Positions 44,813 through 50,610 of a stretch of DNA of 64,000 nt are shown in pieces. The position numbers and the translations under genes were made by a program. The notes beneath the pieces are model-generated. The model made no database searches. It saw only the letters and a program-made list of their open reading frames with translations, and was not told the DNA's origin. Position 1 is the stretch's first letter; each line of letters starts with the position of its first letter. This DNA is from Flavobacteriaceae bacterium (GTDB lineage Bacteria; Bacteroidota; Bacteroidia; Flavobacteriales; Flavobacteriaceae): the NCBI GenBank assembly GCA_026709415.1, contig JAPOSZ010000030.1, positions 186,001-250,000 of the forward strand. The letters run 5' to 3'.

Positions 44813-46189
44813 ATGAGAGTCCATAAAGTTGTCCTCGTCGTGGTTTTAATGGGGATTTTGTTGGCATGTGGAAATAAAAAATCGCGACTATCTGGAGCAC
44901 CTATAGAAGTCTCAGGAATCCAGCGTGAGTATGTACCCGAAAAACCATTTGGTATGACTGAAATCGAAGGAGGATCCTTTTCAATAGGAACACCGAATGA
45001 TGATATGACCGAACCCAGAGACTATACACCAACTGTATTAGTCCCATCATTTTTTATGGATGAAGCAGAAATCAACAACGAACAGTATAGAGAATTTGTT
45101 AATTGGGTAAGAGATTCAATTGCTCGAGAACTTTTGGCTTTAAAAGTTCAAGAATTGGGAGCTGATAATCTATCGGAAGGGATTGGACAATTTGCTTTTC
45201 AAGACAAGTCTGATGTCGAGTCTTCATCTGAATATAAACAATATATGATTAAACAATATGGAGAAGATTTTCCTGACACTTATAAAATCAATTGGGATGT
45301 TAAATTGTTTTGGGATTTTAAAAAATATCCAGATCAGTATTATGCACAAGTTATGGATTCATTTTATCTCCATCCTTCAAAATGGGTCATGGGGAAACCA
45401 AAGTTAGATGTTAAAAAATTCAAATACCGTTATACAATACCCCAGCGTGATTTGCCTTTAAATAATTCAACTAGCTCGGATACGTTTTTAAATTTTGAAC
45501 CTTTTATTTCAGAAGAGGTTATTGGAGTGTATCCAGATACAACTGTTTGGATTAAAGATTCTCATTATTTTTATAGCGAACCAATGCACTATAATTATTT
45601 TTGGCATCCTGCCTATAGCGAATATCCAGTCGTGGGAGTCAATTGGCATCAAGCCAATGCGTTTTGTGCTTGGCGAACCCAGAATCGAAACAACTCCAAT
45701 GTATCTGGAGTAAAACAAGTGATTCCTCAATATCGATTGCCAACTGAAATAGAATGGGAATATGCTGCAAAGGCAGGAGAAGGAGAATTGGATAGCATCA
45801 TCTATCCTTGGGGGACCAATCAACTGACTGATGATGGTAGATTTTTGGCCAATTTTAAACTTCGTAGAGATAAGAAGGGGCTTTATACCGTTCATGTAAG
45901 AGCGTATAAACCCAATAGAAAAAATTTGTATAATATGGCTGGAAATGTAGCAGAATGGACTTTAACATCTTATAATGATAGGGAATCCTTCACTCCTTCG
46001 GTAAATCCTAATATCAATGATAAAACCGATGAACGTAAAGTGATCAAAGGCGGTTCATGGAAAGATGTTGCTTCTTATTTGAAAATAACTTCTAGGGATT
46101 CTGAATATGCAAATATTGCAAGAAGTTTTATTGGCTTTCGTACGGTTCAAGATTATCCTAAAAATTTTTCTAAAGAAGACTTTGAATAA
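44813..46189 (+). CDS. gldK: Gliding motility/T9SS lipoprotein GldK
   Basis: A 458-residue outer-membrane lipoprotein with lipobox LLACG at about residues 17-21. It carries a formylglycine-generating/sulfatase-modifying (FGE) fold: IEGGSFSIGTPNDD near the start, VVGVNWHQANAFCAWR, YRLPTEIEWEYAAK and MAGNVAEWT. GldK forms the periplasmic ring of the type IX secretion system with GldN; its FGE-like fold is not thought to be catalytic. gldL should follow directly but is displaced by an IS remnant of about 1.1 kb. Confidence 0.96.
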   Translation: MRVHKVVLVVVLMGILLACGNKKSRLSGAPIEVSGIQREYVPEKPFGMTEIEGGSFSIGTPNDDMTEPRDYTPTVLVPSFFMDEAEINNEQYREFVNWVRDSIARELLALKVQELGADNLSEGIGQFAFQDKSDVESSSEYKQYMIKQYGEDFPDTYKINWDVKLFWDFKKYPDQYYAQVMDSFYLHPSKWVMGKPKLDVKKFKYRYTIPQRDLPLNNSTSSDTFLNFEPFISEEVIGVYPDTTVWIKDSHYFYSEPMHYNYFWHPAYSEYPVVGVNWHQANAFCAWRTQNRNNSNVSGVKQVIPQYRLPTEIEWEYAAKAGEGELDSIIYPWGTNQLTDDGRFLANFKLRRDKKGLYTVHVRAYKPNRKNLYNMAGNVAEWTLTSYNDRESFTPSVNPNINDKTDERKVIKGGSWKDVASYLKITSRDSEYANIARSFIGFRTVQDYPKNFSKEDFE

Positions 46190-46199
46190 TTCAAAATCA

Positions 46200-47280
46200 A
46201 AAAAGTCGGCCGCTGCGAAGAAATATTTTTTCTTTTTCAACATATTGATCAACTTATTCGGAATTGATTCCGTTTAAAAAAGTGTCTTCTTCCCGTGATT
46301 TTGCCTTTTTCGTCTCCATATGGAGTGTCTTTGAGCTGAATAGGGTTTTTGATGGTTTCCTTTTTCCGTGAGATCTTTTTAGGAAGGCCATGTTCAACTA
46401 TACAGTGCAACATGAACGACTCCGAGACATGTTGACAGTGGATTTTATCCAACCCTTTGAATCCTACCATCTAACAACCAAAACAACGAGCTAAGCCAAC
46501 AAAGGTCTGTTTCATCACCAACGTTCTTTACTAATGGCTTTGTTACACTTTTTTTGTTGATGTATCGAGAGTTTGTTACGAAACTCCTTTTCTATCACTA
46601 AGGATTCCCTCCTCATTTGTTTCAGCAGTTGATTGTTTTTTTACTCTTTTTAAAACTAATGGGCTTCATTGTCCATATTGGGACTGTCTCATAGTTTTTC
46701 CACACGATAGGCATCTTCTGCTTTTAACTCTTGATTGCCACGAGTACTCTCTTGACGGACTTAATTTCTATTTTTAGGCTTGCCTTTTGGTGAAATGGGA
46801 CTCGTCGTCATACTAGGATCGACAACAACGGTTTCTTGAATGATGACTTTCTTTTTTTCCCATTGTCGATTGACCTCATCCATGATGGGTTGAGACCGAT
46901 TTTGGGCTATCAACTCGGAACGAAAAAGAGACAAGATGCTATGATCGGGAGCTATAGCTCCTATGTCTAAACCACAAAAGGTCGTGAAACGGATGCTATC
47001 TTTCATGGATTCTTCCGTCCGAACATCCGAGAGTTTGAACCACACGGAAATCAACGGCATTTTCAATAAAATCATGGGATGGTAAGCTTTCAGGCCTCTT
47101 TGTTTTTTTCTGATTGAATGTGTTCGACCAGTAGGACTTCCATTGGTTGCCAATCCATGATGTCATTAACTTGATTGAAAAACTAGTCGATGGCTGTTTT
47201 TTTTCGTACTTGATATGTATTAAAAAACGCATTGGTCTCGATTGAAAGGATTTGAAATGATACATAACGTGTATCATAGA
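46200..47280 (-). pseudogene. Decayed IS5-family transposase/insertion element
   Basis: On the reverse strand, successive fragments in different frames rebuild an IS5-type transposase. They are an N-terminal stretch (47277-47000, GNQWKSYWSNTF), a middle with FKLSDVRTEESMKDSI then FCGLDIGAIAPDHSI and VDPSMTTSPISPKGKPK (47153-46761), a piece ending AISKERW (about 46620-46520) and the C-terminus GFKGLDKIHCQHVSES (from about 46468). Several stops and shifts separate them, so it is inactive. Inverted repeats at the ends were not clearly identified. It sits between gldK and gldL. Confidence 0.85.
47257..47277. repeat. Inverted repeat ATGATACA/TGTATCAT
   Basis: Perfect eight-base arms (47257-47264 and 47270-47277) with a five-base spacer at the start of the IS remnant. 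A related palindrome recurs at 47387-47402. Confidence 0.4.
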
Positions 47281-47386
47281 TAAAAAACAATAGCTTAAAT
47301 AAAAAAGAGGGTTTTTTGACCAAATCCTTTATTTTAGCAAAGAGTCAAAATTTTGATGCAAAGGTCTCAATAAAGTAACTAACACC

Positions 47387-47402
47387 TGTATCATAAGATA
47401 CA
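47387..47402. repeat. Palindrome TGTATC-N4-GATACA before gldL
   Basis: Six-base perfect arms with a four-base loop, 20 bases before the gldL ATG. It repeats the TGTATCAT word of the inverted repeat at 47257-47277, about 120 bases away. It may mark an IS end or be an operator. Confidence 0.38.
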
Positions 47403-47422
47403 ATAATTAGAAGATTATATTT

Positions 47423-48073
47423 ATGAATCGCTCGACATTAAAGAAGAGATATATCATCCAATTGAGAATGCATCAGTTATTTGGTTTTGGTGCTGCCATT
47501 GTGATTTTGGGTGTGCTTTTCAAAGTTTTACATATCGAAATTGGATTTCTCACTGGTAATTTGGTATTGGGAATTGGTTTGGGGGTTGAAGCTTTGATAT
47601 TTACGCTTTCTGCATTTCAAGTTGGAGAAATTAAATCCCAAAATGAAGATCGCATCCGAAAACTGGAAGAAATGGAGAATAATAAAAATCAAAGAAGTCA
47701 AGCAGGGTTATCCGCTAAAATTGATAAACTATTGATTGATTCAAAAGTTGATGTCGTGTTGATTGATAAATTAGCAGATGCTATTAAAAACCTAGAATCA
47801 ACGGCAAATCAAGTGTCTAGTACTTCCAAAATTGTATTGTCTTCTCAAGTCTTTGGAGAACAATTAGAACGTGCTACTGCTCGACTGACTTTATTAAGCA
47901 ATAGTTATCAAAATCAAATTCAATTAATTGAAAAACAAGAATTATTCAATAATCAATTAACTCAAAATATGGAGTTAATTAATCAACAGATGACTCAACT
48001 CAACAAAAATCTAACAGCCATCAACCAACTGTACGATGGTGTGCTGGTCGCCATGAAATCACCTAAAAACTAG
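47423..48073 (+). CDS. gldL: Gliding motility/T9SS motor protein GldL
   Basis: A 216-residue inner-membrane protein with two TM helices (about 15-37 and 43-63). The LFKVLHIEIGFLTGN segment contains the membrane glutamate thought to carry proton flow in the T9SS motor. A coiled-coil cytoplasmic tail with many Gln/Asn follows. It works with GldM as the proton-driven rotary motor. gldM starts 11 bases later. The upstream gene gldK is separated by an IS remnant, so expression may need its own promoter. Confidence 0.96.
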   Translation: MNRSTLKKRYIIQLRMHQLFGFGAAIVILGVLFKVLHIEIGFLTGNLVLGIGLGVEALIFTLSAFQVGEIKSQNEDRIRKLEEMENNKNQRSQAGLSAKIDKLLIDSKVDVVLIDKLADAIKNLESTANQVSSTSKIVLSSQVFGEQLERATARLTLLSNSYQNQIQLIEKQELFNNQLTQNMELINQQMTQLNKNLTAINQLYDGVLVAMKSPKN

Positions 48074-48084
48074 TATCCAACATT

Positions 48085-49659
48085 GTGGCTAGGGAGTCCA
48101 TACGACAAAGACTGATTAACTTGATGTATTTGGTGTTTATTGCTATGTTAGCTTTAAATGTTAGTCGAGAAGTATTGTTTGGTTTTTGGCAAATGAATTC
48201 TAAAATGATAGATTCCAATGAAGAGTTGACATATGGTAATCAAGAGATTTCTAATCGAATAGCTATTATTGCCGATGAACGTGGTGGTCGATGGATCGAC
48301 GTATTAGATGATGCCAAGACAGCAGATTCATTGACTTCAAATTTCGTTCAATATTTAGAAGAAATCAAGTACCAATCCACTACCAAACGCAGAAAAAAAG
48401 ACCCGACTCTCACCGACTTCAACCAAATGGACTCTTCTGAATCGTTGGATCGCATCTTTTTTCAATCGGGTGGAACTACGCCACAAGGAAAAGGATTTAT
48501 CAATCGTATCGAAGACTTTAGAAATCAAATTAAGTTGGTCATTTCACCAACCAATGAAGATTTTAATGCAGTGGTCGATGAACGCTTCTATACGGGAGAT
48601 CAAAATAACCATGTGGTCAATGCTAGTGGTCAGACGGTAGAATGGCTTCAATACCATTATGAAGGATTTCCATTGATAGCTTCGATTGCAAAAATATCAA
48701 TGCTTCAAAATGACGTGCTTCAAACGGGCAATGATATTTTTAATATTTTAGTTAGTGGAGAATATCGTGGAGATGCAGAAGTCAATGAAGAAAACTATTT
48801 TTCGATGTTAAATTCAGAAAAGGCGGTGTATTATCAAGGCGACACCTTCGATAGCGAAGTTGTTTTAGCTCGACGAGGTAGAACTCAAAATCCAAATGAA
48901 GTTGAATTGTTTCTAGATAATCGACCATTGACTCCTAGTCAATATAGTCTGGTTCCTGGTGGTGTTCAATTAAATATTGACAATTTGGGTGTTGGTGATT
49001 ACAACTTGACTGGCCGTTTGATTTTTTTTAATGAAGGCGTTCAATCCATCATACCGATTCAAAAAACCATCTCTGTTATGAGTAGACCCAATACGGCTGT
49101 TGTTTCTGCTGACAAAATGAATGTCGTTTATCGAGGCATTGATAATCCCATGACCATCTCAATTCCAGGGATTTCAAACAATAAAGTTTCGGCTTCAGCA
49201 CCAGGATTACAATCCCTTGGAAATAATAAATACAATATGCGACCATCTACTGGTCGTCAAGTAGACATCAATGTTACTGGTCAATTATCAGATGGTCAAG
49301 TCGTGAATTCATCTTCACGTTTTCGAATCAAAGAAATACCAAAACCAACTGGGTATTTTAGAGGTTACTCTGGAAACTTTACTTTACCTCGATCTAGTTT
49401 TGAAAAGGGCATTGTCGAAGCGCGATTAGAAGATTTTGATTTTGATTTAACCCTTAGAGTGGTCTCTTTTCGGTTTCGGGTTCCTGGCCAACCAAGTTTT
49501 CAAATTTCTGGAAACAGATTAGACTCTCGATCGATCAATGCCATGAGAAACGTTCGCTCAGGTCAGGTAGTGATCATTTCAGATATTGAAGTACAAGTCA
49601 CATCGAATACGACCTATAGAATGAGACAAACATCACCGATATCCATTACTGTTAACTAA
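48085..49659 (+). CDS. gldM: Gliding motility/T9SS protein GldM
   Basis: A 524-residue protein with one N-terminal TM helix (about 9-30, LINLMYLVFIAMLALNVS) and a long periplasmic part of four domains. The C-terminal strand (residues about 430-524) includes FRVPGQPSFQISGN, the GldM C-domain. It spans the periplasm and links the GldL motor to the GldK/GldN ring. The start is TTG (MARESIRQRLINL after correction for initiation). Confidence 0.95.
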   Translation: MARESIRQRLINLMYLVFIAMLALNVSREVLFGFWQMNSKMIDSNEELTYGNQEISNRIAIIADERGGRWIDVLDDAKTADSLTSNFVQYLEEIKYQSTTKRRKKDPTLTDFNQMDSSESLDRIFFQSGGTTPQGKGFINRIEDFRNQIKLVISPTNEDFNAVVDERFYTGDQNNHVVNASGQTVEWLQYHYEGFPLIASIAKISMLQNDVLQTGNDIFNILVSGEYRGDAEVNEENYFSMLNSEKAVYYQGDTFDSEVVLARRGRTQNPNEVELFLDNRPLTPSQYSLVPGGVQLNIDNLGVGDYNLTGRLIFFNEGVQSIIPIQKTISVMSRPNTAVVSADKMNVVYRGIDNPMTISIPGISNNKVSASAPGLQSLGNNKYNMRPSTGRQVDINVTGQLSDGQVVNSSSRFRIKEIPKPTGYFRGYSGNFTLPRSSFEKGIVEARLEDFDFDLTLRVVSFRFRVPGQPSFQISGNRLDSRSINAMRNVRSGQVVIISDIEVQVTSNTTYRMRQTSPISITVN

Positions 49660-49662
49660 TTT

Positions 49663-50610
49663 ATGAAAACCAACGTTCCCATCTTATTGACTTTCCTATT
49701 AGTTGGTTATGGTTTTTTCTCCTCCCATGCCCAATACAATGAAATATCTGCTCCTTTTCCTAGTCTTATTGGCCAACCGATTGATCCCACCATCAAGGTC
49801 GATAATTCTGAAAGTTACATACCCTATCCGTTTGTGGATGAAGACGATATTCTTTGGAAAAAAACGGTCTGGGAATATATCGAGTTACCAAGACAAGACG
49901 AACAAGACCAGGAAAATAGAAATAACCCACTTTATTATCCTACCATAAATAATGGATTTTTATCAGATGATAGAATTTCACTTTTTCGGGTATTATTGGA
50001 TGGGATAGAAAATCGTGAAATAACAGAAATCTATAGAACTTATAATTTCAATGAACGACTAACTATTAAAGAAGTTCGACAAAATTTAAATTTGAGAAAA
50101 CTATCTGATTTTGGTATTACCAAATTAAATGCGGGTGAAACCCTGACTGAAGATGATTATGACATCTATGAAATCCAATCAGGAGGAATATTGCAGTACT
50201 GGATTAAAGGAATATGGTATTTCAGTGAGCGGTTAGGTTCTCTGAAATATCAAATCATTGGGATTGCCCCAGTAGCTCCCGATGTGACAACGCTAGATGA
50301 TCCGAATAACCAAGGCACCAATGTTTCTGAAGATACCTTGGTTCCTCTATTTTGGGTTTGGTATAAAGACGCTCGAAAAGTACTTTCTCAACACAAAGTT
50401 TATATAGGTAATTACTGGGCAAGTGAGGATAGTTATGACGATTATTTAATCGAGCGTCAATTTCATTCGGTGATTTACGCTGTAGAGAATGTTTTTAACA
50501 ACCAAACTATTAGAGAATACTTACCTGAAGATTCCGAGCAAAGACTTCTCGAGTCTGAAAAAATCAAAGAATCCATAAGAAATTTCGGACGCGATATTGA
50601 GGGTCAATAG
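49663..50610 (+). CDS. gldN: Gliding motility/T9SS protein GldN
   Basis: A 315-residue periplasmic protein with a signal peptide (about 1-23, ending SSHA). Family features are the DDILWKKTVWEYIELPR segment and VPLFWVWYKDARKVLSQH. It forms the periplasmic ring with GldK. It starts three bases after gldM. Confidence 0.95.
   Translation: MKTNVPILLTFLLVGYGFFSSHAQYNEISAPFPSLIGQPIDPTIKVDNSESYIPYPFVDEDDILWKKTVWEYIELPRQDEQDQENRNNPLYYPTINNGFLSDDRISLFRVLLDGIENREITEIYRTYNFNERLTIKEVRQNLNLRKLSDFGITKLNAGETLTEDDYDIYEIQSGGILQYWIKGIWYFSERLGSLKYQIIGIAPVAPDVTTLDDPNNQGTNVSEDTLVPLFWVWYKDARKVLSQHKVYIGNYWASEDSYDDYLIERQFHSVIYAVENVFNNQTIREYLPEDSEQRLLESEKIKESIRNFGRDIEGQ

Follow-up and report, generated by a model that had tools for sequence, protein, structure and literature searches.

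A decayed IS5-type insertion sequence between gldK and gldL in a Flavobacteriaceae bacterium, and a putative type IX secretion system without GldJ and the GldK-PorG cysteines

The gldKLMN locus and the inserted element

The window, a stretch of 64,000 nucleotides of contig JAPOSZ010000030.1 from a Flavobacteriaceae bacterium, carries the genes gldK, gldL, gldM and gldN on the forward strand, with the remnant of an insertion sequence (IS) on the opposite strand between the first two. The features of the locus are as follows.

44813-46189, + strand: gldK, lipoprotein of the type IX secretion system (T9SS) ring and the gliding track (TIGR03525, 421 bits, cut-off 350)
45839-45841, + strand: codon AGA (Arg) of GldK residue 343, coordinate computed from the gldK start
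46175-46189, + strand: last codons of gldK, stop included, contributed by the IS terminal repeat (IS end and window compared side by side)
46175-47368, - strand, antisense to gldKLMN: decayed IS with an IS5-type transposase, 1194 nt left of ~ 1401
46384-46423, strand not assigned: scrap of ~ 40 nt inside the remnant, resembling the termini of another repeat family
46761-47153, - strand: longest remaining transposase ORF fragment (DUF772 domain, E 6e-16; IS5_4 model, E 2e-21)
47369-47422, + strand: host spacer 5′ of gldL, outside the IS, which ends at 47368
47423-48073, + strand: gldL, motor (TIGR03513, 86 bits, cut-off 68.3)
48085-49659, + strand: gldM, motor, GTG start (TIGR03517, 357 bits, cut-off 180)
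49663-50610, + strand: gldN, ring and track (TIGR03523, 161 bits, cut-off 85.9)

All four gld frames are open and score above their curated NCBIfam cut-offs, as the original prediction of four intact genes had it. The gldL, gldM and gldN genes are close-packed and end at 50610, and 1233 nt lie between gldK and gldL. The gldKLMN genes are treated as an operon in the operon prediction of PMC5879114, and porPKLMN in PMC5005315. In having the four genes, with all models above the cut-off, the locus is the same as the Flavobacterium johnsoniae gldKLMN operon, which serves both the T9SS and gliding.

The proposal that a decayed IS5-family element lies on the strand opposite to the gld genes proved correct. 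The longest ORF fragment scored 76.5 bits against the IS5_4 model (NF033581, transpos_IS5_4), below the cut-off of 140 because the ORF is only part of a transposase, and the intact transposase at L129:1904-3022 of the same genome reached 244 bits. A full-length copy on contig C27 (1401 bp, transposase open) aligned to window positions 47368-46180 in three BLAST pieces with 71%, 71% and 80% identity, and the E-values of 2e-97, 6e-22 and 7e-9 rule out chance similarity. The 80% piece pairs positions 1336-1396 of the C27 copy with window positions 46239-46180 (E 6.5e-9); BLAST thus reaches 46180, and the final bases of the right end, 46175-46179, were aligned by eye. Overall, the remnant is ~ 68% identical to the C27 copy and shows eight deletions relative to it (one of 174 nt, internal), of which six are frame-breaking, together with eight in-register stops.

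The element had originally been assigned to the interval 46200-47422. Its position between the two genes stood, and its ends were moved to ~ 46175-46180, inside gldK, and to 47368. Read outward, the IS end is GAGACCTTTGAATAATGCAAAATCAAAAAA and the end of gldK is GAAGACTTTGAATAATTCAAAATCAAAAAA; since the right end of the IS lies inside gldK, the last residues and the stop codon of gldK derive from the IS. The 54-nt spacer at 47369-47422 looks, by eye, like the spacer of G001, a genome of the same genus. The 5-bp flanks of the remnant have no clear match, and a target duplication is not demonstrable at the window. We regard the insertion and its anatomy as practically certain.

The remnant has 39 matches in the window genome, and an intact copy has 41. 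The intact genomic copy carries a DDE transposase with a DUF772 domain, and the intact copies are bounded by terminal inverted repeats (GAGACC..GGTCTC) beginning GAGACCTTTG, both ends of which are recognisable in the window. Direct repeats of 5 bp were found in four of the six copies compared at both ends, at C27, C31 (two copies) and C2, with none at C9 and C17. IS5 subgroups are associated with target duplications of 2-4, 8 or 9 bp. The element therefore shares with the IS5 family (IS5_4) a transposase above the model cut-off, the DUF772 domain and, in the intact copies, terminal inverted repeats. Its 5-bp direct repeats appear to differ from the usual lengths, so that it was placed in no subgroup, and the window copy is dead.

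Contigs C3, C4, C5, C9, C11, C15, C17, C20, C25 and C30 of this genome begin or end inside the same IS, and therefore the assembly hides several near-identical copies; contig ends in repeats are expected where an assembler stops. The ~ 40-nt scrap within the remnant (46384-46423) also recurs in the genome, at L143:809-1928, L142:775-814 and L147:778-813. At two of these sites the similarity extends over 341 bp (99.7%), and one of the two adjoins an ORF with a weak integrase-core match; the scrap apparently represents the ends of another mobile element.

Spacing between gldK and gldL, taken as the distance separating the stop codon of gldK from the first GldL residue in the alignment, was measured in the 108 of 109 relative loci that had both genes (L127 had no gldL match, and one genome is represented by both L011 and L049). 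It ranged from 25 to 244 nt with a median of 83 nt and exceeded 300 nt in none of the 108, so the expectation of a normally tight gldK-gldL junction held, and the comparison that had been suggested as a check found no relative with such a gap. The distance of 1233 nt in the window compares with 45 nt in G001, whose GldL is 81% identical to that of the window, and 31 nt in G002, also of this genus; a single G001 contig covers the whole locus without an insert. A shared ancestral gap was rejected, being absent from all the relatives examined, G001 and G002 included. Given the narrow range in relatives, the insertion is lineage-specific and confined to the lineage of the window. Taken alone, it is an ordinary IS story.

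Possible transcription across the remnant

No frame break was found in the ~ 3.2 kb of gldLMN, whereas the ~ 1.2 kb of IS gained its six frame-breaking deletions; for that reason gldLMN are probably still selected and expressed. The dN/dS ratios of the four gld genes between the window genome (G000) and G001 are 0.10-0.17, averaged over a span of time that predates both the IS insertion and the loss of gldJ described below.

No terminator-like site was found on the + strand of the insert. Sigma-70-like sites numbered 9 in 3 kb, against 9.9 expected, and one such site, at 47379-47407, falls within the host spacer. Promoters of the Bacteroidota type carry TTTG at -33 and TANNTTTG at -7. The insert contains one match to this pattern at up to one mismatch, where 1.7 would be expected, and the 400 nt upstream of gldL are free of such sites. 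With neither class of site above chance, a clear new promoter in the insert was dropped as a candidate, and the original suggestion that the motor genes are likely separated from the gldK promoter drew no support from these counts.

An alternative is that a promoter, newly arisen or already there, within the IS end or the 54-nt spacer might serve the motor genes and gldN, with gldK and gldLMN forming separate transcripts. The sigma-70-like site within the host spacer would fit such an arrangement, as would the IS elements with outward promoters that are known in Bacteroides, but the chance-level site counts and the empty 400 nt upstream of gldL speak against it, and we consider it rather unlikely. 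We lean modestly towards readthrough over a new promoter: transcription starting upstream of gldK would run through the terminator-free remnant into gldLMN. The insertion would then have been tolerated through the variability of the GldK tail after FRTVQD together with persisting readthrough.

Loss of GldK Cys343 and gldJ, and a PorG-like protein without tail cysteines

The GldK of F. johnsoniae has Cys285 and Cys343 besides its lipid cysteine (PMC12635249). In the same article, from 2025, Cys343 is described as completely invariant in GldK/PorK, as forming disulfides with SprF and PorG, and as required in F. johnsoniae both for type A export and for gliding; the GldK Cys343-PorG/SprF disulfide was proposed to carry mechanical energy to the translocon and the adhesins. 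Our literature search on GldK with Cys343 found nothing beyond this article.

The only cysteines of the window GldK are Cys19, in the lipobox, and Cys285. In our GldK alignment of 110 rows (G002 entered twice), column 343 holds Cys in 106, and the remaining four rows belong to the three genomes examined from the window's genus, with Arg in the window, Gln in G001 and Arg in both rows of G002. Cys is present at this position in G022, the genome whose GldL comes next in similarity. The closest solved structure in the PDB is that of PorK (9mzu, E 4.5e-61), whose GRGCFLGNF aligns to DDGRFLANF of the window protein, and an AlphaFold model of GldK (pLDDT 53) was too poor to use. Judged from these alignments, the loss of GldK Cys343 is almost certain. 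It also appears old, because it is common to three genomes with intact gldKLMN. As a separate observation, the G002 GldK (L150:1869-3239) has no lipobox cysteine.

PorG is expected at a locus with the gene order nadK-uppS-bamA. Within the 400 kb of stretches sampled from the window genome we found a row of nadK, a PorG-like gene, uppS, bamA and an OmpH/Skp-like gene, with all names except PorG given by eye. The feature of interest is:

L185:1776-2618 (contig C21), between nadK and uppS: PorG-like gene

Its product matched NF052316 weakly, over profile positions 24-204 of 209 (E 7.7e-13; 48.7 bits, cut-off 130), and DUF6089 just under the cut-off (E 1.9e-4). The open frame has cysteines at positions 15 and 102 and nowhere else; the C-terminus ends FGISATISLKKFPLVW, and the C-terminal tail has none. 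No PorG of G001, G002 or G022 turned up in 80 sampled stretches, and neither a tblastn search with PorG against plasmids nor a PDB search returned anything. The GldK cysteine is missing from all three genomes of the genus examined, and the putative PorG of the window genome lacks tail cysteines; a co-loss of both sides of the disulfide may extend over the genus.

The third change concerns gldJ. The moving track is composed of GldJ, GldK and GldN (PMC12635249), GldJ is required for GldK stability in F. johnsoniae (PMC9127263), and SprB is not secreted by gldJ mutants of that species (PMC9870892). In the window genome, gldJ is a pseudogene at L160:1033-2420 (contig C25), beside an intact murF. 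Relative to G001, the locus carries 14 indels, six of them frame-breaking, with a net change of -259 nt, and it is recognised as two fragments of 130 and 78 bits, whereas G001 and G002 have full-length genes (550 and 595 bits). No other GldJ was found in the window genome, where the best match reached 121.5 bits against a cut-off of 458. GldJ was above the cut-off in 52 of the 60 genomes surveyed; among the 37 of these belonging to the window's family, it was missing only from the window genome and from G005, which is 80% complete. The loss of gldJ from the window assembly is, to our minds, very well founded. Because GldJ is needed in F. johnsoniae, the alternatives for this lineage are adaptation or a failing T9SS.

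Other components remain. SprA scored 1859 bits against a cut-off of 200, with a frame of 2382 aa, and four proteins of the window genome exceed the cut-off for the T9SS sorting tail (TIGR04183). Both gldB and gldH are present, with gldH scoring under the cut-off in each of the three genus members; their retention is odd if gliding was lost long ago.

Artefacts of metagenome assembly or binning are a very improbable source of the gldJ lesions, of the cysteine losses or of the insertion. In favour of an artefact, the assembly of the window genome is broken into 34 contigs, several of which end at IS ends, and G000 and G001 resemble each other unevenly, with kb-long blocks ranging in identity from 75% to 99.8% (L133/L151, L155/L154, L252/L170), which could mean that one of the bins is chimaeric or that the lineages recombine. 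However, a remnant only ~ 68% like the other copies would not be misplaced by an assembler, and the G001 contig spans the locus without the insert. The 14 separate indels of gldJ lie beside an intact murF, and three assemblies agree on the loss of Cys343 and show Arg, Gln and Arg there.

Uneven protein change and the state of the secretion system

Residues unique to one genome were counted among the three genomes of the genus. GldK has 68 residues unique to the window against 29 unique to G001 (p 9e-5), and GldN has 46 against 16 (p 2e-4). GldL (10 against 15) and GldM (35 against 36) show no window excess, nor do MurF, GldB, GldH, a glucosamine-isomerase/PIG-L protein and an FAD oxidoreductase. 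A topA-like gene (30 against 108 unique residues) was dropped as a rate control, its G001 copy matching in two pieces. The two separate pieces of this G001 gene (L149) suggest a frameshift or a deletion.

The faster change of GldK and GldN may reflect recombination rather than the loss of their partner GldJ, a reading to which we give somewhat less than even weight. Either gldK and gldN would have been imported from a more distant lineage, or G001 would have taken them from a G002-like one. The patchwork identity between G000 and G001 may itself come from recombination or from a chimaeric bin, and pS is slightly higher in gldK and gldN (0.64 and 0.62) than in gldL and gldM (0.58 and 0.58). On the other hand, gldL and gldM separate gldK from gldN, so that two events would be needed, nor is a window-branch excess seen in the five further genes compared. 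We tentatively entertain, at about the same strength, a sequence of events in which the T9SS of the genus runs without the GldK-PorG disulfide and the window lineage then lost GldJ, which would have freed GldK and GldN to change and left the motor proteins as they were.

A T9SS in decay would account for several of the same observations, with the IS insertion, the loss of gldJ, the cysteine losses and the faster change of GldK and GldN as steps towards loss of the whole system. The dead gldJ fits this course, as do the window-branch excesses in GldK and GldN, the count of only four proteins with a sorting tail above the cut-off, the PorG score far under its cut-off and the fact that both cysteine losses hit residues needed in F. 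johnsoniae. Yet gldK, gldL, gldM, gldN and sprA are all open and full length, GldL and GldM show no window-branch excess, and the Cys343 loss, present in three genomes with intact gldKLMN, appears old. We hold progressive decay to be unlikely, though with a probability that is far from negligible.

Known systems offer partial parallels. Compared with F. johnsoniae, the window differs in having an IS between gldK and gldL, no GldK Cys343, a dead gldJ and a cysteine-free PorG tail. The PorKN ring encoded by porPKLMN of Porphyromonas gingivalis is a secretion ring in a non-gliding bacterium, according to PMC12635249, and its PorK is the protein of structure 9mzu. This PorK, however, keeps the PorG-linked Cys356 (in GRGCF) where the window GldK has Arg. 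F. johnsoniae mutants with C-terminal truncations of GldJ lose gliding and keep secretion, as reported in PMC9127263, which is the state that we infer here; in the window genome, by contrast, most of gldJ is wrecked.

The explanation that we favour overall, with a modest degree of confidence, combines a tolerated IS, readthrough, loss of gliding and retention of a T9SS without the disulfide link. An IS with intact copies elsewhere in the genome inserted antisense at the 3′ end of gldK and then decayed, and the operon would have been kept for type IX secretion and not for gliding. The motor would act on a GldJ-free assembly of GldK and GldN that is coupled to the translocon by non-covalent contacts. 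That this disulfide-free T9SS is functional is a more doubtful proposition, which we would put slightly below an even chance. In F. johnsoniae, the loss of Cys343 or of GldJ disables secretion of at least some cargo, and the T9SS could here be non-functional.

A T9SS-bearing group without Cys343, if true, would amount to a natural exception through which the need for the covalent link could be tested. In the same way, a genome without GldJ but with gldKLMN and sprA would offer a natural test of the passage from a gliding track to a pure secretion ring.
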